Shown in pieces: positions 17,218 through 64,000 of a DNA stretch of 64,000 bases. The notes beneath the pieces were generated by a model. It saw only the letters and a program-made list of their open reading frames with translations. It was not told the DNA's origin and ran no database searches. Source of the DNA: Rosa chinensis (taxonomy: Eukaryota > Streptophyta > Magnoliopsida > Rosales > Rosaceae); contig NC_037091.1 in the NCBI RefSeq assembly GCF_002994745.2, forward strand, positions 29,890,289-29,954,288. Direction: 5' to 3'. Within the stretch, counting starts at the first letter, position 1, and every line of letters begins with the position of its first letter. The position numbers were made by a program, and so were the translations under genes.

Positions 17218-18009
17218 GCGATTTCACATGGAATCTGTTGGCTATTCATAGGTGTGATTTGCCCTAAGAGCATAGAGAGTTTTTGTGACAGTAATCAAGG
17301 TGCCATTTGGCAAGGGGAACTTGTGCTATTCCATGTCCTTGAATTAATACTGATGGCCCAGCCATCGTAGTCACAGAGTAATATGCTCAGAATCAAAATG
17401 GAGTCATAATGAAAAGAACACGAAATTTTATTCATAAGCCAATGGGATCACTCATATAAAATGGTATCAACCCCCTTACCATTGCGTATTGTTACTTATC
17501 GGGTGTAGAATAGATCTACTTCTTTTTGTACAGAATAACAAATGTACAAACTAATAAAGAGCGAGTCAATCTTCATAAATTTCATCGTAAATGTGAAATA
17601 CTTAATACAAATAAAAATCTGGGAGAGATAAAAAAGATGCAGGGTCGTTTGTCTGCTTGGTTAGTCAAACATGGGTTAGTTCATAGATCTACATCATTGT
17701 ATCTTAACCATTAGGAGAATCTAATCCAAATGCTTAGCTAATGCAAAATAAAGGTAGTCGTTTGACTTCTTTCAGTAACTCCAAAATAAATATGACCAGG
17801 TGAGTAGAGAGATGTTAGTGGAGCAAAGCTCGCTTAAGTACCACTTATCTCAAATCCTTCCTAGACATCATACTTATTTTGGATGAGCCTATGTGAAGAA
17901 AAACTAAACCAATGACATTTACTACAAAGTATATGACAATTGATTATTACATCTCTTGGAAAAATAAAGATTGAAACAGAATTGGCGATCTATTGATCCC
18001 AGCCAGAGT
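17218..18009 (-). other. Copia protease region, decayed beyond recognition (copy 1)
   Basis: By position this should encode the protease and the gag-pol junction. I see no D(S/T)G motif in an open frame. The corresponding part of copy 2 is interrupted by the solo LTR at 55464. Confidence 0.5.
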
Positions 18010-21503: not shown

Positions 21504-21739
21504 GCTCAATGGCTAGTTATTTGATTTGTCTTTTGTCATTGGTTCAGCTTTTCAATTTTCATGCATTGTCATGGTTGTAAACTTCCCTTCGATAAATGAA
21601 TTGGATTTTCCATGTTAAGTTCCTCATTCTGTTCTATAAGCTTTGCTTCATCAATGAATTGAATCTCCGATCAAAAAGAAAAGAAAGGAACAAAAGAGGA
21701 GAAAACTTTTGCACAAAAATCCAACATACTCAATTCATA

Positions 21740-24700
21740 GAGTGGTCCTAGAGACACCAAAATATTTTACCAAATTTCAATCCCAAATGGTGTGGCATTG
21801 CCACCTCATTCATAGTTATTTACAACATGTAATTATGTCAATTAAATTTCATTTATATAGTTTCCATTATATATGCAATTACTTAATATTATATTAAATG
21901 AGAAAAATAATGTTTCCCTGCAATCCCAAAAATTGATCTTCAAATACCAGGGATATTATCATATACCACCTGTCATCATCATCCTCATCTCATGCTGCGC
22001 CAAAATTTGGAACTGAAGGGACGAAAAATCAACTAGGATTTGAATAAATAAAAGGTCTTGCGTATGAAAATCCAAAATAAAGAAGATGATTATGAATATA
22101 GCAACCACAAGGCATAAATTGGCTTTGTAAATCATAATCACAAGGGATTATGATGAAAAACTGTGAGTTAGCTCTTAATAAAAGATTAAGAAAGATACAA
22201 ATCAATACAGAAGTTAATTTAACCAACTTGTTTTGAAATTTGAATCCACTGGATTGGTTCAAGAAATTAAAAGAGAGAACAACAAATTTACTTCTTCTTC
22301 TTCTTCTTCTTTTTTTTTTTTTTTAAACAGTAGAACAAATAATTTACTGGTTGTAGATAGATGACTGCGATATATGGAGGATGAGTTTTGCATTTTTTAG
22401 GGTTTATCAAGACATGAGTTTGCTCGCTTGTTGGATTGATTAACTTCACCGCATTTTCTTCTTCCGTTTTTTAATATCATAGAGATAAATAAACCAATTT
22501 AAAAACATATTCTAAATATATATAAAAAAATGACAGTTTGAATATTTTGAGGTTCATTAGGGCTGATGTGGTCAATGTCATGTCATTTGGGATGGTTTTT
22601 TTATATAGAATTTTGGGATCCAAAGCATTTTTCTTACTTTAATCAATAATTGATATCAAAATATGACTTAAGGTATCACATTGGTAAAGAGGTGAGTGTG
22701 AGTATCAAATTGGGCTTGGCACCAAAATTTAGAGACCAATGGTAAATTTTTCTCTTTAATTAATGATTGGCAGCATTTCCATGCGCGTATTTGAAGAAAA
22801 CACTAGAATTAAAGTAAACTAATGGCAAACCCAATTAATATGTATTTAATTTAAGATAAAATGACACACAAAATTAGTGAAAATCGAAGTTTCCAAGTTC
22901 CAACAAAATAATGAAATGGTCAATACCAACCAACCATGGTTAATGCCATCGAGTTAAGCGGGACCCGACCACTATAAAAAAAAGAGACAGAAAAAGAAGA
23001 AAAAAACAAAGGAGAAAGGAACTATAAAAAAATAAAAAAAATTAATTTTAATTAATGATTGGCACCATCCGTGCCTTTCTTCTTCATGAATCAATCTTGA
23101 TCAACTTGTTCAACCATTCAAATATTCAATTACACTTATTAACTGTCTACATGCATCCACGCTTTACTCTCTCAATAAAAAGAAATGAATATTTGAATTG
23201 GGTTTGCCATTAGTTTACTTTAAGAGTGGTGCTAGAGACACCAAAATATTATACCAAATTTCAATCCCAAATGATGTGGCATTGCCACCGCATTCATAGT
23301 TATTTACAACATGTAATTATGTCAATTAAATTTCATTTATATAGTTTCCATTATATATGCAATTACTTAATATTATATTAAATGAGAAAAATAATGCTTC
23401 CCTGCAATCCCAAAAATTAATCTTCAAATATCACGGATATTCTCATATACCACCTGTCATCATCATCCTCATCTCATGCTGCACCAAAATTTGTAACTCA
23501 AGGGACGAAAAATCATCTAGGATTTGAATAAATAAAAGGTCTTGCGTATGAAAATCCAAAATAAAGAAGATGATTATGAATATAGCAACCACAAGACATA
23601 AATTGGCTTTGTAAATCATAATCGCAAGGGATTATGATGAAAAACTGTGAGTTAGCTCTTAATAAAAGATTAAGAAAGATACAAATCAATACAGAAGTTA
23701 ATTTAACCAACTTGTTTTGAAATTTGAATCCACTGGATTGGTTCAAGAAACTAAAAGAGAGAACAACAAATTTACTTCTTCTTCTTCTTCTTCTTCTTTT
23801 TTTTTTTTTTAACAGTAGAACAAAGAATTTACTGGTTGTAGATAGATGACTGCGATATATGGAGGATGAGTTTTGCATTTTTTAGGGTTTATCAGGACAT
23901 GAGTTTGCTCGCTTGTTGGATTGATTAACTTCACCACATTTTCTTCTTCTGTTTTTTAATATCTTAGAGATAAATAAACCAATTTAAATACATATTCTAA
24001 ATATATATAAAAAAATGACAGCTTGAATATTTAGAGGTTCATTGGGGCTGATGTGGTCAATGCCATGTCATTTGGGATGGTTTTTTTGTATAGAATTTTG
24101 AGATCCAAAGCATTTTCCTTACTTTAATAAATAATTGATATCAAAATATGACTTAAGGTATCATATTGGTAGAGAGGTGAGTGTGAGTATCAAATTGGGC
24201 TTGGCACCAAAATTTAGAGACCAATGGTAAATTTTTCTCTTTAATTAATGATTGGCAGCATTTCCATGCGCGTATTTGAAGAAAACACTAGAATTAAAAT
24301 AAACTAATGGCAAACCCAATTAATATGTATTTAATTTAAGATAAAATGACACACAAAATTAGTGAAAATCGAAGTTTCCAAGTTCCAACAAAATAATGAA
24401 ATGGTCAATACCAACCAACCATGGTTAATGCCATCGAGTTAAGCGGGACCCGACCACTATAAAAAAAAAGGGACAGAAATAGAAGAAAAAAACAAAGGAG
24501 AAAGGAACTATAAAAAAATAAAAAAATTAATTTTAATTAATTATTGGCACCATCCGTGCCTTTCCTCTTCATGAATCAATCTTGATCAACTTGTTCAATC
24601 ATTCAAATATTCAATTACACTTATTGACTGTCTACATGCATCCACGCTTTACTCTCTCAATAAAAAGAAATGAATATTTGAATTGGGTTTGCCATTAGTT

Positions 24701-26343
24701 TACTTTAAGAGTGGTGCTAGAGACACCAAAATATTATACCAAATTTCAATCCCAAATGATGTGGCATTGCCACCGCATTCATAGTTATTTACAACATGTA
24801 ATTATGTCAATTAAATTTCATTTATATAGTTTCCATTATGTATGCAATTACTTAATATTATATTAAATGAGAAAAATAATGTTTCCCTGCAATCCCAAAA
24901 ATTGATCTTCAAATACCATAGATATTCTCATATACCACCTGTCATCATCATCCTCATCTCATGCTGCACCAAAATTTGGAACTCAAGGGACGAAAAATCA
25001 TCTAGGATTTAAATAAATAAAAGGTCTTGCGTATGAAAATCCAAAATAAAGAAGATGATTATGAATATAGCAACCACAAGACATAAATTGGCTTTGTAAA
25101 TCATAATCGCAAGGGATTATGATGAAAAACTGTGAGTTAGCTCTTAATAAAAGATTAAGAAAGATACAAATCAATACAGAAGTTAATTTAACCTACTTGT
25201 TTTTAAATTTGAATCCACTGAATTGGTTCAAGAAACTAAAAGAGAGAACAACAAATTTACTTCTTCTTCTTCTTCTTTTTTTTTTTTTTTTTAACAGTAG
25301 AACAAAGAATTTACTGGTTGTAGATGGATGACTGCGATATATGGAGGATGAGTTTTGCATTTTTTAGGGTTTATCAAGACATGAGTTTGCTCGCTTGTTG
25401 GATTGATTAACTCCACCGCATTTTCTTCTTCCATTTTTTAATATCTTAGAGATAAATAAACCAATTTAAATACATATTCTAAATATATATAAAAAAATGA
25501 CAGCTTGAATATTTAGAGGTTCATTGGGGCTGATGTGGTCAATGCCATGTCATTTGGGATGGTTTTTTTGTATAGAATTTTGAGATCCAAAGCATTTTCC
25601 TTACTTTAATCAATAATTGATATCAAAATATGACTTAAGGTATCACATTGGTAGAGAGGTGAGTGTGAGTATCAAATTGGGCTTGGCACCAAAATTTAGA
25701 GATCAATGGGAAATTTTTCTCTTTAATTAATGATTGGCAGCATTTCCATGCGCGTATTTGAAGAAAACACTAGAATTAAAGTAAACTAATGCCAAACCCA
25801 ATTAATATGTATTTAATTTAAGATAAAATGACACACAAAATTAGTGAAAATCGAAATTTCCAAGTTCCAACAAAATAATGAAATGGTCAATACCAACCAA
25901 CCATGGTTAATGCCATCGAGTTAAGCGGACCCGACCACTATAAAAAAAAAGGGACAGAAATAGAAGAAAAAAAACAAAGGAGAAAGGAACTATAAAAAAA
26001 ATAAAAAAATTAATTTTAATTAATGATTGGCACCATCCGTGCCTTTCCTCTTCATGAATCAATCTTGATCAACTTGTTCAACCATTCAAATATTCAATTA
26101 CACTTATTGACTGTCTACATGCATCCACGTTTTACTCTCTCAATAAAAAGAAATAAATATTTGAATTGGGTTTGCTATTAGTTTACTTTAAGAGTGGTGC
26201 TAGAGACACCAAAATATTATACCAAATTTCAATCCCAAATGATGTGCCGTTAGTTTACTGTCTTCATTAGGGCTGATGTGGTCCATGCCATGTCATTTGG
26301 GATGGTTTTTTTGTATAGAATTTTGGGATCCAAAGCATTTTCC
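21740..26343. mobile_element. Tandemly amplified TIR element array inside one 9-bp TSD
   Basis: Three full units of about 1484 bp (from 21738, 23222 and 24707) plus an internally deleted fourth (26190-26343). The whole array is flanked by perfect 9-bp repeats CAATTCATA at 21731-21739 and 26344-26352. Left ends read GAGTGGTGCTAGAGACACCAAAAT; the right end, reverse complemented, reads GGAAAATGCTTTGGATCCCAAAAT, giving imperfect TIRs. Right-end sequence also occurs inside each full unit, followed by a roughly 590-bp extra segment. The 9-bp TSD suggests a Mutator-like element. Units are non-coding: (CTT)n and poly-A tracts, short frames only. Confidence 0.88.
22811..23222. repeat. 412-bp segment with 28-bp inverted ends inside array unit 1
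   Basis: TTAAAGTAAACTAATGGC...CCAATT at the left is inverted at the right as AATTGGG...TTAGTTTACTTTAA. The right end coincides with the unit boundary at 23222. Equivalent segments occur in units 2 and 3. No flanking duplication is visible, so it may be a nested TIR element or a structural part of the repeat. Confidence 0.65.
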
Positions 26344-27545: not shown

Positions 27546-27669
27546 TGTGCTGTGTCTTTAGCTTCACAGAAAAAGAGAGAGAAAAACAAAAAAAGAGCCA
27601 AAAAAGAGAGAGAAGGGAAGACTTTCCTTCATAGCTACTTTCTACCAGAAATCGTGATCTGCAGGAGCA

Positions 27670-30357
27670 ATGGGTAACATCTTCTCAGTTAATTTGACTT
27701 GCGATACCCTATTTTCTCGCTGCTGGGATTCCATAGCTAAACAAGAACAACTCTGCATAAGTCTTGAAGAAAACCGTGAAACTCTGCAAACTTCCTTGGA
27801 TGATTTGTTGGCTTTAAGGAATGATGTGAAGCAAAGGGTTGATGATGCTGAGAAGCTGCCGCAAATGAAGCAGACAGAGCAGGTACAACGCTGGATCTCA
27901 AAAGTGGAAACTGTAGAGACTGCAGCTAATGCAGTTTTAGCCAGTAGCATTCAACAAGTCGAGAATGGAGGCTGCTGTTCTAATAACTACTTATCCAGTT
28001 ACAAGTACGGAAAAAGAGTGACTAAATTATTGAGAAAAGTCACTAAATTACAGAGCGAGGGAGTTTTCAAAGAGGTGGCAGCACATAAACTACCAGCAGC
28101 TCTGGACAGTGAAAAACCTATGGAGCCAACAGTGGGCATGGAATCGTTGTTTGATGAGGTTTGGGGCCACATTGAAGATGAAGATGTTGGAGTAATTGGC
28201 TTATATGGTATGGGAGGGGTCGGCAAGACCACTCTCCTCACCAAAATCTATAACAACTTCCTTCACACTCTTAATAATTTCCATTATGTGATCTGGGTGG
28301 TGGTCTCCAAGGACACCACAATTGATATCGTTCAAAATAAGATTGGTGAACAGATTGGGTACTCAACTGACGCATGGAAGCATAAAGAGCAGCATCAAAA
28401 AGCTGAAGACATCTTCAGAGTCTTGAGTAGAAAGCAGTTTGTTTTACTATTGGATGATATATGGAAGCCGGTTGAAATAACCAGAGTAGGGGTTCCTATT
28501 CCTAACAAGCAGAACAAATCAAAAATGGTCTTCACAACTCGTTCTGAAACTGTTTGTTGTCATATGGATGCCCAAAAAAGGATAAGGTTTATGTGTTTGT
28601 CACGGGAAAAAGCATGGGTTTTGTTTCGGGAGAAGGTTGGGGAAGAAGCTCTTTCAATTCATCGAGATATCCCGGAACTTGCAAAAGCTGTTGCAAATGA
28701 GTGTGGTGGTTTGCCACTAGCATTAATTACAGTTGGCCGATCCATGGCTTGCAAGAAGACACCCCAAGAATGGAGTCATGCAGTTCATGTTTTGAAGAAC
28801 TCTGCTGCAGAATTTTCAGGTATGGGAGATAAGGTGCTTCCTCTTCTGAAATTTAGTTATGATAATTTAACCAGTGAGAAAATCAAATTCTGCTTCTTAT
28901 ATTGTACTCTATTTCCGGAAGATTTTCCCATATATAAAGAGGACTTATTATATGGTTGGATGGGTGAAGGGTTATTAGATGGTTATAGCAGTATAGATCA
29001 AGCACAAAACGAGAGCTACGATATTATAGGCACTCTAGTTAATTTATGTTTGTTGGAAGCTGATGGAGCTTGTGTAAAAATGCATGATGTGATTCGTGAT
29101 ATGGCATTGTGGCTGGCCTGTGACGTTGAAAAAATAAACCAGAGGTTTGTTCTGCATGCAAGTCTCAAATTGAGTGAAGCAATACCAGATACCATCACAA
29201 AATGGAGCGGAAAAAGAATGTCATTGATGTGCAGTGGTATTGTTTGGCTAGATGCTGCACCAAAATGTCCCAATCTGCTCACCTTGTTTCTTGGAAGAAA
29301 TAATCTGAAGTCTATTGTGCGCGGATTCTTTGATCAGATGCCAGCCCTCCGAGTATTAGATTTGTCTGGAAATCCAAATCTAGCAGAATTGCCGTCAGGA
29401 GTTCAATATCTGGTTTCATTACAACATCTCAATTTGTCAGGAACTCGTATTAGAGCCATTCCGGAGGATCTCAAGACCTTGGTGAAGCTAAAATATTTGA
29501 ATTTGGAACATATGTTAGAGCTTGATTATCTACCTCAATATATCATATATTTTCCGGTGCTTAGAGTTTTGAGGATGCTCAATTCAGGTTCTGTTGACCG
29601 AATTCTTTTCTGTGGTGATAAGAAAGCCATGGTAGCAAATCTCTGCATTTTGGAACGCCTTTACGTCTTTACTTTGAGCACAGAAAGTACCTCTTGTTTC
29701 CAAACCTTGTTCAATAGTGACAGTTTGTTGACATGCACTCAGTCTCTGCACATCAATGACGGCAACAACCAATTGAGCTCTCTTGATATTACAAATTTGG
29801 GGAACAGGAAAAATCTTCATTCTCTTTGCATTTCCAATTATCCTAAATTGGAACAACTGGAGATTAATTGGGCAGGCGCAGCAGCTAGTACAATGAACTC
29901 AAGGGTCAGAAACCAGACTCGCTTCCTTGGCCTTCAAGTTGTTTCTGTATCAAAATGCACGGATCTCAAGGACTTGACATGGCTCATTTTTGCTCCACGT
30001 CTCATCCATGTAAATGTGACTGTCTGCTACAAAATGGAGAAGGTGATTGATTTGGAAAAACTGGGTGGAGTGGCCAATGCGCTAGATGAGTTGAACCCAT
30101 TTGCAGAGCTTACATTTCTGAATTTGAAGCATCTTCCAGCGTTGAAAAGCATATATGAAAATGCCTTGCCATTTCCATGTCTAAAGGAAGTCAAGATAGC
30201 TTCATGTCCTGCATTGAAGAGGCTGCCACTCAACTCTAGCAGTGCCCGAGGATGTAATCTTGTTATTGAAGGAGGAGAAGAATGGTGGAATGCCTTGGAG
30301 TGGGGGGATGAACTTGCTCCAAATGTTTTCCTTCCCAGCTTCAGAACCCGTAACTGA
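27670..30357 (+). CDS. CC-NBS-LRR disease resistance protein, RPS5/RPS2-like, 895 aa
   Basis: An intracellular immune receptor predicted to sense pathogen effectors and trigger the hypersensitive response. Order: N-terminus MGNIFSVNLTCD, whose Gly2 context fits N-myristoylation as in RPS5; coiled-coil region about 25-130 with GGCCSNNYLSSYKYGKRV typical of this subgroup; NB-ARC with P-loop GMGGVGKTT (180-188), kinase-2 FVLLLDDIW (257-265), RNBS-B MVFTTRSE (286-293), GGLPLA (346-351), RNBS-D CFLYCTLFPED (408-418) and MHDV (471-474); leucine-rich repeats from about 525 to the end. It is a single exon of normal length without internal stops; the start chosen gives the family's conserved N-terminus. 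Likely membrane-associated. All nucleotide-binding motifs look intact, so it is probably functional. A guarded decoy partner such as a kinase is known for RPS5 but cannot be inferred here. Confidence 0.96.
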   Translation: MGNIFSVNLTCDTLFSRCWDSIAKQEQLCISLEENRETLQTSLDDLLALRNDVKQRVDDAEKLPQMKQTEQVQRWISKVETVETAANAVLASSIQQVENGGCCSNNYLSSYKYGKRVTKLLRKVTKLQSEGVFKEVAAHKLPAALDSEKPMEPTVGMESLFDEVWGHIEDEDVGVIGLYGMGGVGKTTLLTKIYNNFLHTLNNFHYVIWVVVSKDTTIDIVQNKIGEQIGYSTDAWKHKEQHQKAEDIFRVLSRKQFVLLLDDIWKPVEITRVGVPIPNKQNKSKMVFTTRSETVCCHMDAQKRIRFMCLSREKAWVLFREKVGEEALSIHRDIPELAKAVANECGGLPLALITVGRSMACKKTPQEWSHAVHVLKNSAAEFSGMGDKVLPLLKFSYDNLTSEKIKFCFLYCTLFPEDFPIYKEDLLYGWMGEGLLDGYSSIDQAQNESYDIIGTLVNLCLLEADGACVKMHDVIRDMALWLACDVEKINQRFVLHASLKLSEAIPDTITKWSGKRMSLMCSGIVWLDAAPKCPNLLTLFLGRNNLKSIVRGFFDQMPALRVLDLSGNPNLAELPSGVQYLVSLQHLNLSGTRIRAIPEDLKTLVKLKYLNLEHMLELDYLPQYIIYFPVLRVLRMLNSGSVDRILFCGDKKAMVANLCILERLYVFTLSTESTSCFQTLFNSDSLLTCTQSLHINDGNNQLSSLDITNLGNRKNLHSLCISNYPKLEQLEINWAGAAASTMNSRVRNQTRFLGLQVVSVSKCTDLKDLTWLIFAPRLIHVNVTVCYKMEKVIDLEKLGGVANALDELNPFAELTFLNLKHLPALKSIYENALPFPCLKEVKIASCPALKRLPLNSSSARGCNLVIEGGEEWWNALEWGDELAPNVFLPSFRTRN

Positions 30358-37794: not shown

Positions 37795-39553
37795 GAAAAA
37801 TATAAGCAGTCACAAGAAAATCGTCAGTGTCTCGAGAAAGATAAGACAAGATTTGTCAAAGAAAGGGGTGATCCTTTTGTTCGAAGACCTCATCAACAAA
37901 AGCCTTTCCCAAGAAAGGCAACAAACAAGAGAAGGTGAGAGCTGCCCACATGACAACAAGCTATGAAATTGGTTCGAAGGATTCTGCCAAGGCTGAGTTA
38001 AGCACGGTCAATACGAACCAAATAACAGAGGAGAACGAGGTGTTGAAGCAGTTAGAAGACCTGCCATTGCACTTTAGCATTTCCGATCTATTGCAATTGC
38101 CAAAATCGACAAGATGTGCTTTGGCACAGGTGTTGATCGACATGGGCAAGAACTCCACAGACATTAACAAGGTGAAACCGAAGGAATGCATCACGTGTAT
38201 TGCAGATTGTGATGCCATCCACTTTACGAATGAAGACCTTTAGTTAGGCTCTAAGCCGCATAATAGACCTCTCTTCGTGTCAGGGTATGTGCGAGATCAA
38301 AAGATAAACCGCATGCTTGTAGACGGAGGGTCCGCTGTAAACATCATGCCAAGATCAACTATGAAGCAACTTGACATCAACATGGAGGAGTTCTCCCGAA
38401 GTCGGCTCATGATTCAAGGCTTCAACCAAGGGGGACAAAGAGCCATAGGCATGATCAGAGTAGATATGACAATTGGAGAAATGAAGTCGAACACTTTGTT
38501 TCACGTGATCGATGCGAAGACCTCCTACAATTTATTGTTGGGGCGACCATGGGTTCACGAAAATGGTGTCGTTCCCTCCACTCTTCATCAATGCTTCAAG
38601 TTCTATGATGGTGGAGTAAAAACAGTAGCAGGTGATACTAAACCATTCACTGAACCTGAATCTTACTTTGCGGATTCCAAGTTCTACATGGATGATGAAA
38701 CAATAAAGGAAGTTCTCCCAGTTGGAGTACCTTCTACAGGGAAGACTGCAGAGGTGTGTAATAAGGAAGTGGAATCCAGCATAGCAAGAAATTCCACTGA
38801 GGAACCACATAAAGTTTCGTCGGAAACTAAAGTGACAGCTTTAAAGAACAAAATCAGCTCCTCTGCTCCAGTTCTTCATTACGTGCCAAGGTCTAGGCGA
38901 AAAGAAGGGGACTCTCCTTTTGTGGAGGCAAATGAGCAAGAAAGTCCACGAAAGCTAGATGAGAAGGACGTAGAATTGTTAAAAGAAACATCAACCATAC
39001 CGTTGACGAAGTTAAGCAACGTAACTCCCACCAAGCAGCCGCTAAAGGCGTTTGTCCAAGCGATTCAAGGCAAGACAGAGCATGGGACACTTCCTGACAA
39101 AAGGACAAAGGAAGGATTCAACCCTAACGCTTACAAGCTGCTAGCAAAGGCTGGATATGACTTCGGTTCGTCAAGCAAGCAAGGTGGCCAAGTAATCCCT
39201 GGTAAAAAGGTGCATGAGCTTAATGAATCTCAAAGGAGGTTGAGAAAGCAAGGATGCACAGCTGACCCTGCTAAAGCAGGTCTTGGTTTTGTACCAGGCA
39301 AACCAATTAAAATTTCAGGAAGAAGAAAAGTTGCGAAGGCAAACAAACAACACATTAGTGTTGAAGTAATAGAAGAATAGACTCAAGGATCTGAAACTGC
39401 CCCTCTCATTTCTACACTTGATCGCATTCGTCCTAATTCTCAAGCTGCGATGCCTGAACAAGTTGATGAGCTGGCACCTCGAGTCTCTGTATTCGATCAT
39501 GTCAACACTTCAACAAGCCGAGTCTCAGCACCCAAACGACTACTCGAGCTTCC
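37795..39553 (+). pseudogene. Tat gag C-terminus and aspartic protease
   Basis: A frameshift near 37930 and a TAG at 38241 break this region. The longest open part, 38277-39380 (367 codons), has the protease segment MLVDGGSAVNIMP, where the catalytic DTG/DSG of most retroelements reads DGG, and YNLLLGRPWVH, the conserved distal protease motif. Later KAGYDFGSSSKQGG and KAGLGFVPGK resemble a G-patch. The frame then stops at 39378 and shifts near 39550 into pol. Confidence 0.82.
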
Positions 39554-42364
39554 GTGTTCAATAGGTTGTCATCTTCCGATGAAGGAAATAAGAAATCTGA
39601 GTCAGCCCCTCGAAAGTCAGCACTTGAGAGGATACAAGCACCCAAAGAGCAGCGAAGGCGAAAAAGAAAGGAGATTGATGACCAAGGAAATGACAAAGAG
39701 ATCCGAAGTCTCATTCCGTCACCCATGAAGCGACGCTCTATGTTAGAGGTGAGCTCAAGCGAACAACTCAAAGTGAAGGAGCACACTATCGTACTCACTG
39801 GCCAAGTTGGAACTAGTAATGTTGATGGCAATGGCGAAGATGAGATTGTACAATCTGCCTATCATATCACGGTAGCAGAAGCAGATGCTTTTGAAGAAGA
39901 TGACCATGATCATTCCGAGGATGAAGTAGATGAAGCTCCTCCAGAACTGGAAGACGGGGGGCAAGCCACTGTCGACGAGCTTAAAGAGCTCAATTTGAGA
40001 ATTGAGGAAGATCCAAGACCTGTCTTCGTGAGCGCTTCGCTGAGTCATGAAGAAGAAAAGAAATACTATGATCTGCTGCTTGAATATAAAGACGTCTTTG
40101 CATGGACGTACAAAGAAATGCCTGGTCTTGACCCAAAGGTAGAGGTTCATCGTCTTGCAGTTAAACCTGAGGCTCGACCGATCAAGCAAACACAACGACG
40201 CTTTCGGACAGAACTCCTTCCTCAAATTGAAGCTGAAGTTGATAAGTTGATTACTGCGGGTTTCATTAGAGAGGTTCAATATCCTAAGTGGATTGCAAAC
40301 ATTGTTCCTGTCAAGAAGAAGAACGGACAACTCCGTGTATGTGTGGACTTCCGCGACTTATATGACTCGTGTTCGAAAGATGACTTCCTTTTGCCCATCA
40401 TTGAACTCATGGTGGATGCAACAACAGGGCATGAAGCTTTTTCCTTCATGGATGGGTCATCTAGGTACAATCAAATTAGGATGGCCTTAGAAGATGAAGA
40501 GCTTAATGCGTTCCGTACTCCCAAAGGCATTTATTGCTACAAAGTCATGCCATTCGGGTTGAAAAATGCTGGTGCAACATATCAACGTGCTATGCAGAAA
40601 ATCTTCGAAGACATGCTTCACAAGTACGTGGAATGTTATGTCGACAATTTAGTGGTCAAGTCAAAAAGGAGGACGGATCACTTCCAAGACATACGAAAGG
40701 TGTTTGATAAACTACGCAAGTACCAACTCAAGATGAACCCCCTCAAATGTGCTTTTGGAGTTAGTTCAGGCAAGTTTCTTGGATTCATTGTGGAACATCG
40801 TGGCATTGAAGTAGACCAGTCAAAGATTAAGGCCATTCAAGACATGTCTGAGCCAAGAAATCTATGCGAGTTAAAAAGTCTCCAAGGACGACTTGCCTTT
40901 ATTAGACGGTTTATATCAAACCTCGCAGGCCGTTGTCAGCCGTTTAGTCGACTTCTGAAGAAGGATGTGCCTTTCGTATGGGATGAAGCTTGCCATAACG
41001 CCTTTGAAAGCATAAAGAAGTACTTGGCAAACCCTCCAGTGTTAGGTGCACCCCTCCTTGGGAAGCCGCTTATCCTCTACATTGCTGCTCAAGAGCGATC
41101 ACTCGGAGCACTCCTAGCCCAAGAAAATGAAGCAAAGAAGGAGAGGGTGTTGTATTACTTGAGTCGAATTCTCATAGGACCGGAACTAAACTATCCGCCG
41201 ATAGAGAAAATCTGTCTCGCACTCGTCTTAGCCATCCAAAAGTTAAGACATTACATGCAAGCTTACACAGTGCATCTAGTGGCGCGAGCTGATCTAGTCA
41301 AGTTTGTTATGTCACATCCCGTCTTGACAGGGCGAATGGCAAAATGGGCACTACTCCTCAATCAGTATGAGATCATCTACATACAGGCCAAAGCGGTTAA
41401 AGGACAAGCATTAGCTGATTTCCTAGCAGATCATCCTATTCCTGTGGATTGGGAGATTTCAGATGAGTTGCCAGATGAAGAAGTCTTTAATACAGAAGTC
41501 CTCCTTGCTTGGCAAATGTTCTTCGATGGGTCTTCACGAGCAGATGGGGCAGGAGCTGGTGTGGTCTTCATTTCTCCGCAAAGGCAGATATTGCTTTATG
41601 CCTTTACTCTTGGTGAGTTATGTTCCAATAATGTTGCTGAGTACCAAGCGCTAATTATGGGACTACACACCGCAACTGAAATGAAAATCTCAAATCTAGA
41701 GGTGTATGGAGACTCGAAGTTGGTAGTTGATCTATTACTAACTCTCTATGAGGTGAAGAAAGATGATTTAGTTCCTTATTTTCAGCTCGCCGCACAACTC
41801 TTAAAGGGTTTTGATGCTGTCACACTAACGCATGTGCCAAGAAAAGAAAATCAAACAGCAGACGCTTTGGCCAACTTAGCAGCAACTTTGGCATTATCAG
41901 AGGATGAAATCATACACCTTCCAATCTGCCAACAGTGGGTCGTACCTACAATCTCTGAGCTTTGGCATGAAGACGCCAATGTTGTCTCTGTTTACGTGAT
42001 TGATGTGGATGACTGGAGGTACCCGTTGATTGATTACCTTAAGCGAAATAAGTTGTCTGATGACCCAAAGCAACGCTCAGACATAAGACGAAGAGTATCA
42101 CGTTTCTTCTACTATAAGGAGACTCTTTATCGACGACCATTCGAGGGATTACTTCTTAGATGTCTGGGGAAAGAGGAAGGTGCTAAGGTTATGGAGGAAG
42201 CTCATTCAGGAGTATGCGGAGCTCACCAGTCAGGTCCTAAGCTTCATTTTCAAGTGAAGAGGATGGGTTACTATTGGCCCACTATGGTTAAAGATTGCAT
42301 GGAGTATGCACAAAGGTGTCAAGCTTGCCAGTTTCATGTAAACTTCATCCATCAACCACCATAG
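39554..42364 (+). pseudogene. Tat pol: reverse transcriptase, RNase H, second RNase H, integrase zinc finger
   Basis: A 936-codon open frame. RT about 200-420: LRVCVDFRDL, MPFGLKNAGATYQRAM, and the active site reads YVDN instead of YVDD (about 362-365), likely inactivating. RT-linked RNase H about 490-630, ending KGQALADFLADHP. A second, archaeal-type RNase H about 650-780 keeps the acidic set (FFDGSSRADGAGAG, NNVAEYQALI, VYGDSKLVV, NQTADALANLA). The integrase HHCC finger is near 880-930 (HSGVCGAH, CQACQ). TAG at 42362 separates it from the integrase core. Confidence 0.9.
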
Positions 42365-42367
42365 CCA

Positions 42368-43261
42368 TTGCATCCAACGATTGCTTCCTACCCCTTTGAT
42401 GTGTGGGGACTTGATGCTGTTGGGCCCATAACTCCGAAATCCTCCACCAATCACTCATACATTCTAGCGGCTACGGATTCCTTTTCAAAGTGGGCAGAGG
42501 CGGTACCACTTAAGGAAATAAAGAAAGAAAATGTTGTAGACTTCATCAAAGGGAATATCATTCAACGATATGGTGTTCCTCGCTGCATCATCACAGACAA
42601 TGCCAAGTACTTTTCCAATAGTGCCATGGAGAAACTCTGTGAGAAATATCACTTCAAGTTACACTTTTCTTCTATGTATAATGCCCTGGAAAATGGGTTA
42701 GCTGAAGCATTCAACAAGACATTGTGTAACATTTTGAAGAAAGTTGTCGGCAAAACAAAAAGGGATTGGCATGAAAGAATGGCCGAGGCGCTCTGGGCCT
42801 ATAAAACGACATATCGAACTCCCACGAAAGCTATACCTTACTCCCTTGTATATGGTGTTGAAGTTATCTTACCCTTGGAGAAACAAATTCCATCTCTAAG
42901 GATTACTTTGCAAGAAAGACTAACTGATGAAGAGAACGTCAAGTTACACCATCAAGAGTTGGAAGCCTTAGATGAAAAGAGACTTGACGCGCAACAGCAC
43001 TTGGAATGCTATCAAGCTAGAATGTCACGAGCTTTCAACAAAGGGGTTCGACCCAGATACTTTCAAGTTGGTGATCTAGTGCTTGTCGTGCACAGACCTA
43101 TCATCATGACACACAAGACTGGTCCTAAGTTTCAGTCAAAGTGGGATGGACCTTATGTAGTCCGCGAAGTCTGCACCAATGGAGCCTACAAAATTGTGGC
43201 TGAAGATGGCCTGAGGATTGGCCCCATAAATGGAAAGTTTCTGAAGAGGTACTACGCTTGA
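42368..43261 (+). pseudogene. Tat integrase core and C-terminus
   Basis: 297 codons in frame with pol after the TAG. The catalytic triad is visible: GLDAVGPI (Asp), IITDNAKYF (Asp) and NGLAEAFNKT (Glu). The C-terminal part GDLVLVVHRP and FQSKWDGPYVVREV is the usual GPY/F module. This half is complete and is disconnected only by the upstream stop. Confidence 0.88.
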
Positions 43262-59756: not shown

Positions 59757-61043
59757 GGTTCACTAAATATTACCGCTCAAGTGTTTAGGGGGTATATGTG
59801 TTTCACTCAAAAACAATTTCACAACACGCGCCGCCATATGCTTCCTCTTCGATCTCATCTCCGCTATGTAACCCACAACATTCAAGATCAAGAGGTCTTT
59901 TATTTGGTTGTAATTGGGCTAAGGGCAAGTGGCTATAAGAAATGAAGGATAGGGAAATACAAAGTCCATGGAAGCCCGTGAAGCAATTCTCTCTTGTAGA
60001 GATATTAGACTTTTGCTTTCGAAGCTAACTCACTCACTCTAAACCCAATGTACAACCCACACTACACTATACTATAAACAAAAATAATACTAGCTATTTT
60101 TTTTTTCCAACACCTTTTTTTTTTTTTTTTCTTCTCTCCTTTTCTACTTTCCTTTTCCTTGAGCTTTCTTTTTATTTTCACAACTTCTTCTACTTCTTTT
60201 ATTTTTTTATTTTTTTATTTTTAGAACTTTCTTTTCTATATAAATCACTCACCCCCACACTTATTCTTTTATAACCTCACACTTTTGACTTTTCTTTTCT
60301 TTGGAAGCACTCAAACATAAAGTCATTCTCTCTAATAGCTTCACCAACTACCACGGAAGGGTAGGATAAAAGTGTTTAGGCTAGGTAGGGATTTGTGGTG
60401 CTAATGAACAAAAAGGTTAAATATATAAATAGGCTCAAAGTGACAATCTAGTGGTAAATCTCTTTGGGCACATGCTTCTTTGGCCATGGTGATATTATGC
60501 CTAATGCCTCAATCCTTTCTATCCCATCACAAGCTAACAAGCAGCCTCGAGAGGTCTCAAGCAAGTTCTAGATACACAATGTCATTAAATTGTACACACA
60601 TGAAAGAAAAAGTGAATGAACAATGCATACACTATAGATATAGGCACAAAAACTCACAAATAAGGGCATGCAAGTTATTCAAATCATCTATATGTTTCTC
60701 TAATTATGATGAACCAACCTAACCATAGGCTATGTGCACACATATAGTCAAGCATAGATCACATATACACTTAATCACAAAACAAATTCAAAGTACTAGA
60801 TCATGCTTAATCTATTTACAATCATAACAAGTTAAGTCCATAGTTCGTCATTGGGGTTGGAAAATGCATTAATTAACCACTAAAATATAATTACAAAAAG
60901 CTATCTAATTTTTTTTTTTTAGGGCGCCCAATTCCTCACCCCCACACTTAAAACCAACATTGTCCTCAATGTTGTAAAGTGAGCTCGAAAGCTAACATCC
61001 ACGTCAGATTTAGGCATGAGAGTGAAGTTCGGGCAAAGGCACA
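59757..61043 (-). other. Retroelement-like non-coding region
   Basis: On the minus strand, AAGTGTGGGGGTGAGGAATT near 60930-60950 and the preceding GAGGACAATGTTGG are typical of the region downstream of pol in Athila-type elements. Pyrimidine-rich tracts fill 60095-60230. No intact gene. Confidence 0.4.
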
Positions 61044-61052
61044 AAAAATTAA

Positions 61053-61466
61053 GGGCTAAATACTGATTACTACCTTGTAGTTTGGGTCCATTATCAATTC
61101 AGTCTCTGAACTTCTAATTTCATCAAAAACACCCATGCACTTTCAATTTTGATATAATAGGTCCAATTTGTTAGTTTTCCAATAATTGAAGTTATTTAAC
61201 TTGTTAACGTGGCTCATTTATGGCCTATGTTTTATGATGTGGTGTCGAGGTGGCCTGCATAGTCCATTTAGGAGTGAGTCCTACTATAAAATAAATAGTT
61301 TTTTAACAAATAATCTAACTATAACTTGAACTCATAACATAATATTAACGAATTGGACCTATTAGATCAAAATTGAAAGTGCATGGGTGTTTTTGATGAA
61401 ATTAGAAGTCCAGGGACTGAATTGATTTTGGACCTAAACCATAGGGTAATAACTAGTATTTAGCCC
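61053..61466. mobile_element. MITE, 414 bp, 9-bp TSD AAAAATTAA
   Basis: Ends GGGCTAAATACTGATTACTACC and, from the right, GGGCTAAATACTAGTTATTACC; long internal complementarity including the GCATGGGTGTTTTTGATGAA block. Perfect 9-bp duplications at 61044-61052 and 61467-61475. Mutator-like by TSD size. Confidence 0.92.
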
Positions 61467-61599
61467 AAAAATTAACTATGAAAATGAAAATTTAAATGCG
61501 GAGAAAAGATACGGAAAACCCCATTTTGTAGACCTCCATTGCTCACGACCTACGGAGAAGACACCAACCACAAGGCACAAGGCCTTGACTTCCTATTAT

Positions 61600-62610
61600 G
61601 CTCCAAGGTTGTGCAAATAGCCCAAATACCAACATAAAAATGGACCTCACACAACACCATGAAAACAGTAACTTGCAGCTTGACCTCTGCATATGAAAAC
61701 TACTCTCTAGGGCTCAATGTAGCTTCAAATCAAGTGTGGTCAATTGTAACAGAAACTAGACCCCCTGAGCTTTAAACTCATGTAAATTTCTCCTTTCGAA
61801 TCATTGTGAGTCAAGAGATATGGATTTTCAAATATGACTGAGCTGCAGTCCCAGTTTTGCATTCTATAGTTCTGATCCTTGACTCTTTGAATGGGAACTA
61901 AAACTTCACCCTTTCTCTATTTGGAAATCTGATTAAATGATAAAAAAGTAGAGATCTGGAGCTTGAAGTTTCATGTATGAAAGTCCCCAATATTCATTGT
62001 AGATTGCTCACAATAGCTAGGCAAATTTGACACACTGTTTCTGACAACTGCTGCTGATCCCCAGTCACCAAAACTGCAATAACTGATGCTCCAGAGACGC
62101 AAAGGGGGTGAGACTACTTGGAAATGAAATCTAACACATACTACTGTTTTTCCATAAAATTTCACTTTTAAAATCTTCCTCATCTGGGAATAGTTCTCCT
62201 TCAAATTTGACTAATCTGCACTTCCAATTTCTGCCTACTCTGGATCTGACCCTTGCCTACTTGGAACACCAAATATGAAGCTAGGAATTACCAACATGAA
62301 AACTGTTCTCTGAGATACAATAGACACGGTAAGGTACAACTCCTAAAAATTTCAGCTCAAAATTCGTTCAGATATAGGAGTTGTAGCTTCCCAAAATCAT
62401 TGTACAGAAGCTGCTCTGATTCTGACCTTCATGCAGTAACTACGGAATAAATGGAGTTCCAGGGCTTCAAACTGAAAACTGTTTTTGAGGCATATAGTGA
62501 ACACATGGAGCTACATTTCTGGAAATTTTCATGACAAAAATCTTTCTGAGTTGTGAAATATAGGCTCCCAAATCCACTGTAGAAAAATGGGCAGAAATAG
62601 TACTTCACAC
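61600..62610. repeat. Degenerate tandem repeats
   Basis: At least four diverged units of about 150-200 bp recur, each with a 'GAAAACT-(G/A)(T/C)TCT', 'AATTTC', 'GTTGT(A/G)' and 'CACTGTAGA/CATTGTACA' order of motifs. Typical of retroelement 3' non-coding DNA. A GGGTTGCCTCCCTCGAAGTG block follows at about 62711. Confidence 0.45.
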
Positions 62611-62904
62611 AAAGTGAATGCTTTTTGATTTCTTCACTTCACACACCTTCCTACCACCCAATGATGGTCAAAGAACCTTATTACCTACAAGGTGAAACTC
62701 AAAAGATCAAACTACCTAGGGTTGCCTCCCTCGAAGTGCTTGAGATTAGAGACATCAAGCCGGTCTTCAAACAACACAAACAAAATAACGAAAGTAAACA
62801 CGAGAAAGGAAAAGAAGTGGAAAAGCGGCCCAAAGCTACCTAAATAGGGGTATTACCCCGTACCTTAAAGTTTTTACTAATTACTTTTTACCGTTATTGA
62901 CCGA

Positions 62905-64000
62905 AGAGTGACTTTTTCTTTAGCCCGGTAAATTAGGAATCTCCTTGTGAATGTCATAGGTTATGAAAAATCGAGTTCGTGGACACATAGTTTGTCTAGA
63001 TCGGAGTTATTTCGGGGAAGTTGTGATTTAATGATTGAAGTTACTATTCATTTTTTAAAAATTTATTTACTGTTTTCTAAAAGAGGAAAGTGGGTAAATA
63101 AGAGGAAAGAGAGAGAGTGAAAAATCAGGACAAAGCCCGATCTCCAGCCCTCCCCCTTTTCTTTTCTCTTCTCCTCGGACCGGACCCAAATTCCGGCGAA
63201 ATCACCGCAGCCAGACCTTGTTGGACTCGTCGCCGGCCATCGAAGCTTCCTCTCTTCATCCTCTTTCATCTCAGCTTGATTTGGCCGGAGGAAGTGGGAT
63301 TGATGATGAACAGTGGTGATGAATAGTAGCTCGTCGGTTTGCTTGGTTTCGGGTTGATTTTCCGTGTGGATTTGTTTGTTGTTGCAAGACATACTGAGCC
63401 CTCAAGTGAGGAGGACACGGGCAGGCAGCGGGATTAGCTGCGAGACTCACCTGTGAGTGGACTTTTATTTTATTTAAATAATGCATGCAGGATGGTATTA
63501 AGTTTTTAATGGGATATTATTTGAGTAAATGTGGTATCATGAAAGAAATGGATTTAAAGAATAGAGTTGGCAAGGAGGCTATCTTTAGCGCATGCGTATA
63601 TTACCTAGTTGGCAGTCCCTTCTAGGTAATAGTTTGGTTGGCAGTCCCTTCCAGACTACATCCCGGTTGGCAGTCCCTTCCGATGCGTCATCTGGTAGGC
63701 AGTCCTTTCCAGATGACATGAGGTAGTGAGCTGGCAGTCCCTTCTAACTACCTGTGGCTAGTTGGCAGTCCCTTCTACCCACCGCCTCCTATTCTGGTTG
63801 GCAGTCCCTTCTGATGCGTCATCTGGGTAGCAGTCCCTCCCAGATGGCATGAGATGATTAGATAGCAGTCATTTCTAATCATCAAATGAGTTTTCTTGAA
63901 AAGGATTGAGTTGGAATTATTGTGGAATCTCGCTGCATGTTGGTTTTGTTAACAAAAGAAATGGGGAAGCATTCAATTAATCGTTTCATAACTTATTTCA
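62905..64000 (+). mobile_element. Large LTR (family D) start, cut by the window edge
   Basis: Resembles families A and B in layout: AGCCCGGTAAATTAGG, then CGAGTTCGTGGACACATAG and ATCGGAGTT (62973-63010), a GC-rich stretch (63120-63300), GCAGCGGGATTAGCTGCGAG near 63425, then a subrepeat array. The exact 5' end was not fixed. Reading frames in the GC-rich part overlap on both strands and are not called. Confidence 0.65.
63599..63883 (+). repeat. Array of nine stem-loops with constant loop and unit-specific stems
   Basis: Nine units share the loop TTGGCAGTCCCTT or close variants. Arms: TATTACCTAG/CTAGGTAATA (10 bp perfect, 63599-63631), AGTTTGG/CCAGACT (one G-T), CATCCCGG/CCGATG (bulged), GTCATCTGG/CCAGATGAC (perfect, 63687-63717), AGGTAGTGAG/CTAACTACCT (9 of 10), GTGGCTAG/CTACCCAC (7 of 8), a weak one at about 63791-63816, GTCATCTGGG/CCCAGATGGC (one G-T, 63818-63848) and GATGATTAGA/TCTAATCATC (perfect, 63853-63883). 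Loop length is 13 in most units and 11 in the last two. Confidence 0.9.

Follow-up and report, generated by a model that had tools for sequence, protein, structure and literature searches.

A 64,000-nucleotide stretch of the Rosa chinensis genome (contig NC_037091.1, forward-strand positions 29,890,289 to 29,954,288; the window) carries at its right end a nine-unit hairpin array, positions 63599–63884, in which a shared tip is mounted on stems specific to each unit. As judged from terminal and domain sequences, the host of the array is the long terminal repeat (LTR) of Ty3/gypsy chromovirus-type elements, and the array recurs in related repeats within this genome, a sign that the structure has a function, most likely in the RNA of the element. 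We favor, with a probability of roughly 0.48, a model in which the array serves this lineage as a cis-acting structural element, its tips being read by a trans-acting factor, for which Gag is the likeliest candidate.

Each unit (U1 to U9; Table 1) is read in a register of a 10-nt arm, a 13-nt loop, and a second 10-nt arm. The loop core is exactly GGCAGTCCCTT in six units, with variant cores in U4, U8, and U9; the nine units and their shared core lie where a preliminary description of this DNA had placed them. That description had also counted complementary arms in at least eight units. Seven have good stems, six of them (U2, U4, U5, U6, U8, and U9) with at most one wobble or mismatch within the inner eight pairs, and the count fails for U3, with its three inner pairs, and for the degraded U7. 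The stems of U3 and U7 are poor in other copies as well, and these units may pair elsewhere or represent a different unit type. In those copies, U3 and U7 keep the tip, often with a CGG/CCG inner stem and no lower stem. U3–U5 and U7–U9 seem to have arisen by block duplication: when units four places apart are compared, arm identity is 14/20 for U3/U7, 19/20 for U4/U8, and 12/20 for U5/U9, and near background for U1/U5 (9/20) and U2/U6 (7/20). Because of this duplication the nine units are not independent. Elsewhere in the window, a unit model that recovers seven of the nine units gave one weak match (E 1.7), and no second array was seen in this search.

Within the window array, the arms match their own partners well above chance. 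An average of 7.78 of 9 positions is paired between the arms of one unit, compared with 5.24 when the arms come from different units. The observed pairing is reached by 8 of the 362,880 permutations of the 3′ arms among units, part of which are ties since U4 and U8 have the same 5′ arm; for the seven units that remain without U7 and U8, the true order alone reaches it (1/5,040). Counted pair by pair over nine units, 82.4% of cells are paired versus 62.5% after shuffling (0/500 shuffles), and 28 cells are double changes versus 9.9 (0/500), while slid controls give 41%–53% paired. The clear paralogues U5 and U9 are separated by three double changes with pairing kept; under random placement, equal retention of pairs has a chance of 0.001 in one direction and 0.055 in the other. 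The array folds with z-scores of −4.5 as plus-strand RNA, −5.1 as minus-strand RNA, and −5.1 as plus-strand DNA.

The core is abundant in the 515-Mb genome from which the window comes, with 3,659 exact occurrences versus 29 for the reversed pattern; the variant GGCAGTACCCT has 459 matches versus 129 for its control. Copies of the core were sampled among 100 matches listed of the 3,659, all within the first 10 Mb of C1, from which 20 clusters and nine isolated matches were taken. Seven of the isolated matches (L084 and L086–L091) looked like chance, and two (L085 and L092) were arrays and led to a further group of copies, group C. From 100 listed of the 459 GGCAGTACCCT matches, 20 clusters of at least two matches each were taken and other clusters left. 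The compared set comprises 43 arrays: seven in group A, to which the window belongs, 14 in group B, and 22 in group C. These are working labels, given from LTR similarity and loop variant and not from a tree, and the group C label was applied unchecked to all loci from the GGCAGTACCCT pattern. All arrays were found by the core, so copies lacking it would be missed, and the sample is not random. Group A and B arrays have 8–14 detected cores, a few of which are register artefacts; unit number differs between copies, and block duplications occur. In two cases (L065/L066 and L069/L070), a pair of arrays comes from the two LTRs of one element; duplicate unit sequences entered the pairing and within-class shuffle sets only once, but all are included in the between-group copy counts. 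One array (L075:1655-2208, in array orientation) is split by ∼520 bp between U3 and U4.

The constant tip of these units is a pentaloop, CAGUC or CAGUA, with a closing G-C pair. Among 144 distinct units from 23 arrays, the pentaloop reads CAGTC in 117 and CAGTA in eight, and loop positions 4/10 are G-C in 133; in group C the pentaloop is mostly CAGTA. Further out, loop positions 3/11 are paired in 88.9% of units versus 83.4% after shuffling (0/2000), and positions 2/12 show a weak excess (7/2000), with none above shuffles at positions 1/13 (292/2000). Forms such as GAAG-CAGTC-CTTC and TTGG-CAGTC-CCAA are paired right up to the pentaloop. Folding of the 43 arrays, with 24 shuffles each, gives a median z-score of −2.8, and 20 of them lie at −3 or below; the corresponding medians are −0.55 for upstream flanks (2/43 at −3 or below) and −0.04 for downstream flanks (0/43).

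Pairing is retained across the copies. In the 144-unit set, own stems are 76.5% paired, compared with a shuffled mean of 58.2% (maximum of 1000 shuffles, 62.3%) and 28%–45% in slid controls. The preliminary description had proposed selection on structure and a covariation test on other copies. Classes of units were assigned by mostly paired seed arms with at most five mismatches in 20, a procedure that favors paired units, and four of the six well-sampled classes exceed within-class shuffles in double changes: U6 (9 versus 3.5, 0/1000), U2 (17 versus 9.4, 0/1000, the group C part of this class mixing two neighboring unit types), U5 (11 versus 5.5, 0/1000, one spurious sequence being kept among its 24), and U9 (5 versus 1.1, 1/1000). 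The two others, U1 (239/1000) and U4 (530/1000), show no excess, nor do the classes U8c (412/1000) and U5x (131/1000). Selection on structure is supported in part by these results.

The exchanges themselves are few. Pair 8 of U6 is G-C in all 24 group A and B copies and A-T in nine of the 11 group C copies, and the pair counter gave nine double-change cells versus 4.4 for this unit (2/500), all at one pair. Pair 8 of U5 is G-C in 10/12 A and B copies and A-T in 9/14 group C copies, with G-T in three more of the latter; G-T intermediates at this pair make up four of the 24 distinct sequences. At pair 4 of U9, C-G and T-A alternate among copies within all three groups. Pair 6 of U2 is G-C in 17/20 A and B copies, and in group C (n = 31) T-A in 15 and G-C in 10. 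In group C arrays such as L093, L096, L101, and L102, two U2-like hairpins adjoin, one with G-C and one with T-A at this pair, which makes the two forms paralogous units rather than a group difference. The safe count is two between-group exchanges (U5 and U6) plus the U9 case and the U2 paralogues, not dozens.

The copies do not support the earlier view that the stem of a unit changes completely from one copy to the next: arms are specific to a unit position and mostly conserved across copies, and the complete differences lie between units. Most of the variation within classes looks like decay. This variation, together with the variable unit number and the block duplications, is what an ordinary minisatellite in the LTR would give if its pairing came from an old palindromic unit now decaying. 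Yet arms vary widely from unit to unit and still match their own partners, and double changes separate the groups at U5 and U6; we consider a minisatellite hardly tenable. A mutational process free of selection, such as template switching in replication or reverse transcription, might also keep rewriting one arm from the other; the preliminary description had put forward replication slippage to this effect. Reverse transcription is prone to such switching, some window arms are perfect (U1, U4, and U9), and the four U9 sequences with an exchanged pair are free of mismatches in the rest of the stem. Such mismatches do accompany exchanged pairs in U5 (7/9), U6 (2/9), and U2 (6/15), which mildly disfavors rewriting unless they are later decay, as they may be; the G-T intermediates at U5 pair 8 also speak against it, as does the single loop orientation of the arrays read, though the finder took one orientation per locus. 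Rewriting is not needed to account for the stems, and we think it very improbable.

The location of the array in a plant LTR, also part of the preliminary description, is borne out by LTR ends, a primer-binding site (PBS), gag pieces, and alignment to the LTR of a second element. In the window copy (L078), the LTR end GGTCCTGTCA is followed by the PBS GTTGGTATCAGAGC and then by gag pieces. The PBS form TTGGTATCA(G/A)AGC follows GGTCCTGTCA in this copy and in two other elements, e1 and e2; its assignment to a tRNA is our presumption. The array lies 0.65–0.69 kb upstream of the PBS in three copies. An LTR-end motif is found 623–762 nt past the last core in 18 of the 21 group A and B copies; it is followed by the PBS in three (L065, L069, and L078) and by unrelated DNA in the other 15, which are therefore solo or 3′ LTRs. 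In most group C loci, no LTR end was seen at a comparable place.

Element e1 (C1:4830375-4839280) has two 2790-bp LTRs that are 99.9% identical, with TG...CA ends (TGTGACG...TGTCA), and the array is present in both. It carries a PBS and, as in e2, a purine-rich (polypurine) tract 5′ of the 3′ LTR, and its interior has no frame longer than 117 amino acids. Element e2 has 2.5-kb LTRs, about 94% identical, and encodes Retrotrans_gag, RVP_2, RVT_1, and RNase H domains above cut-off, in Ty3/gypsy order, followed by an rve match below cut-off (22.5 bits, cut-off 32.6); a Chromo match (E 8.8e-5, 22.8 bits) is likewise below its Pfam cut-off of 25.1. The window element retains only pieces of gag, zinc knuckle, protease, and partial reverse transcriptase (RT), and no second LTR was found within 14 kb past 64000. 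LTR and polypurine features suggest that the elements may belong to the Tekay/Del clade. Between the LTRs of e1 and e2, which belong to different groups, the array is the longest alignable stretch (348 bp, 84%); two 75-bp islands (89% and 80%) and a 27-bp match also align, and, overlapping array matches aside, the remainder does not. An island of ∼75 bp just past the window, at 64002–64079 (L078:2002-2079), is 89%–90% identical between e1 and either e2 or the window LTR, neither of which shows much other alignment with e1.

Table 1. Units of the hairpin array and its host repeat in the window
Feature	Position	Strand	Description
U1 hairpin	63599..63631	+	10 bp, perfect
U2 hairpin	63628..63660	+	8 bp including one T-G
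U3 unit	63657..63689	+	three inner pairs in the 10-13-10 register
U4 hairpin	63686..63718	+	9 bp
U5 hairpin	63721..63753	+	9/10 pairs, one G-A mismatch
U6 hairpin	63752..63784	+	7 of the inner 8 pairs, C-C mismatch
U7 unit	63788..63820	+	U3 paralogue, stem degraded
U8 hairpin	63817..63849	+	U4 paralogue; 9-bp stem with one T-G, plus G-C at loop positions 1/13
U9 hairpin	63852..63884	+	U5 paralogue; 9 bp plus A-T at loop positions 1/13
Part of 5′ LTR, Ty3/gypsy chromovirus-type element	62850..64000 in the window (LTR ∼62850–64494)	+	start estimated by alignment to the e2 LTR

Full-length RNA contains every part of an LTR one or more times, so transcription of the element would place the array in its genomic RNA. 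There it would form a row of roughly 8–13 predicted hairpins, each with a CAGU(C/A) pentaloop closed by G-C, and the sequence of a stem would be less important than its pairing. One tip on many drifting stems resembles a repeated binding site for one factor; a trans-acting factor could read the repeated tips and gain avidity through repetition. We infer that the RNA is made and folds in this way in vivo and that its reader is a protein, most likely Gag of the element, acting in RNA selection or in particle assembly; the array would then perhaps be a packaging signal. Its presence in e1, with young LTRs and no gag or pol frames, fits a signal read in trans. A more ambitious proposal is a multivalent hairpin code in plant chromovirus-type LTRs, in which the pentaloop is the letter, the stems drift in pairs, Gag picks the RNA, and the signal is shared with non-autonomous elements mobilized in trans; this we regard as less likely than not.

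The same anatomy would suit any multivalent hairpin, and the structural evidence is the same if the array acts as RNA in another step, such as leader translation control, nuclear export, stability, or dimerization, through a host RNA-binding protein or through loop contacts. Export elements are used by some retroelement RNAs, one of them a complex RNA structure (PMC12786077). Nothing that would favor one of these steps was found. On the plus strand at 62801–64000, the stretch searched, GACTG (fully complementary to the CAGTC loop) is absent, so no simple pairing of the loops with it can be seen there. A role in another RNA step seems to us rather unlikely.

Several results weigh against a tip-reading factor acting on element RNA. 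The presence of arrays and the conservation of the tip are partly built in by the core used as bait. Besides the null results for U1 and U4, the first 23 arrays taken alone gave an excess in just one of seven classes, U9, and the within-class shuffles take no account of relatedness. For U6, two of the five measures of the pair counter are not above shuffles (497/500 and 500/500), and a control slid by +3 has a covariation score of 0.172 versus 0.165 for the unit's own register. The fold z-score is weaker than −3 in 23 of the 43 arrays and about zero or above in six. The array is not always an island of conservation, as e1 and L092, which belong to different groups, align over ∼1 kb at 74%. Finally, departures from pairing show no strand bias in the larger set (G-T 75 versus A-C 74; 38 versus 24 in the smaller set), and sense RNA is not favored over DNA or antisense RNA. 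Equal G-T and A-C counts are expected if the strands are equivalent, or from decay after insertion, and together with the DNA fold z-score given above they would suit selection on DNA, either for cruciform extrusion or for repeated protein sites that serve promoter or chromatin control in the LTR. Arms of 8–10 bp with 13-nt loops are poor cruciform formers, however, and a site bound as DNA would not require arms of differing sequence to pair with each other; selection on DNA is in our view improbable.

Known families offered no identity for the array. No Rfam family reached gathering there, and at E ≤ 5 the region 63300–64000 gave one weak malK-II match. Protein searches with the antisense open reading frame (ORF) of the array and with a leader ORF had no matches. 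A small-RNA precursor seems unlikely, as stems of 9–14 bp are short for plant Dicer products; an iron-responsive element was rejected, as its loop (CAGUGN) differs and it had no Rfam match. Matches in bacteria and viruses (no viral and 23 prokaryote loci for a two-core pattern, 26 viral loci for a three-core pattern) were treated as unrelated. Judged by flanking sequence and a rapid scoring of the arms, many of them are simple tandem repeats whose arms do not vary; the score was high in L032 (8 in 7/7, constant arms) and once in L040 (9).

The rest of the window holds other features. An 899-amino-acid open frame at 27658–30354 has NB-ARC and leucine-rich repeat domains, as in plant disease-resistance type genes. 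Another gag-pol type element at 38244–43258 shows RT, RNase H, and integrase domains, its protease match being weak. At 21739–26246, a unit of 1.48 kb is repeated in tandem about three times, with ∼97% identity between copies. An Rfam match to the Plastid-clpP 5′ UTR on the minus strand at 17477–17537 suggests an insertion of plastid DNA. The array-bearing element seems to be inserted into a stretch (60960–62750, minus strand) with motifs that we take to resemble the 3′ part of an Athila/Tat-type element.

Little is known of how plant LTR retrotransposon RNAs are selected for packaging. With a core present thousands of times in a single genome, this compact array allows the identity of its reading factor to be tested directly, and it also offers annotators a structural landmark in long LTRs that change fast and hardly align otherwise. 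Multi-hairpin, constant-loop structures are a kind already known; searches of the open-licence literature yielded no description of such an array in an LTR. The nearest cases share single aspects with it. Retrozymes likewise place a structured RNA motif in plant LTRs, in their case a hammerhead ribozyme (PMC4918200), to which the array has no Rfam match. Cassandra, Helenus, and Ajax carry a small-RNA-like segment in their LTRs, derived from 5S rRNA or tRNA (PMC10886601); the array has no such Rfam match and consists of tandem hairpins. BARE has conserved packaging and dimerization signals in a plant LTR retrotransposon, but it is a Ty1/copia element, and the signals described in the consulted part of the source include no hairpin array (PMC3735527). 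The Csr/Rsm small RNA RsmZ presents one loop motif on several stem-loops to a repeated protein (PMC4005645); it is a bacterial decoy with a GGA motif, whereas the array, found in a plant LTR, has no GGA in its pentaloop. The alphavirus packaging signal follows the same repeated stem-loop plan, which is needed for selective packaging, with 4–6 stem-loops and GGG in a virus coding region (PMC8233893), as against roughly 8–13 hairpins and CAGU(C/A) in an LTR here, and the likeness is one of manner of working only.
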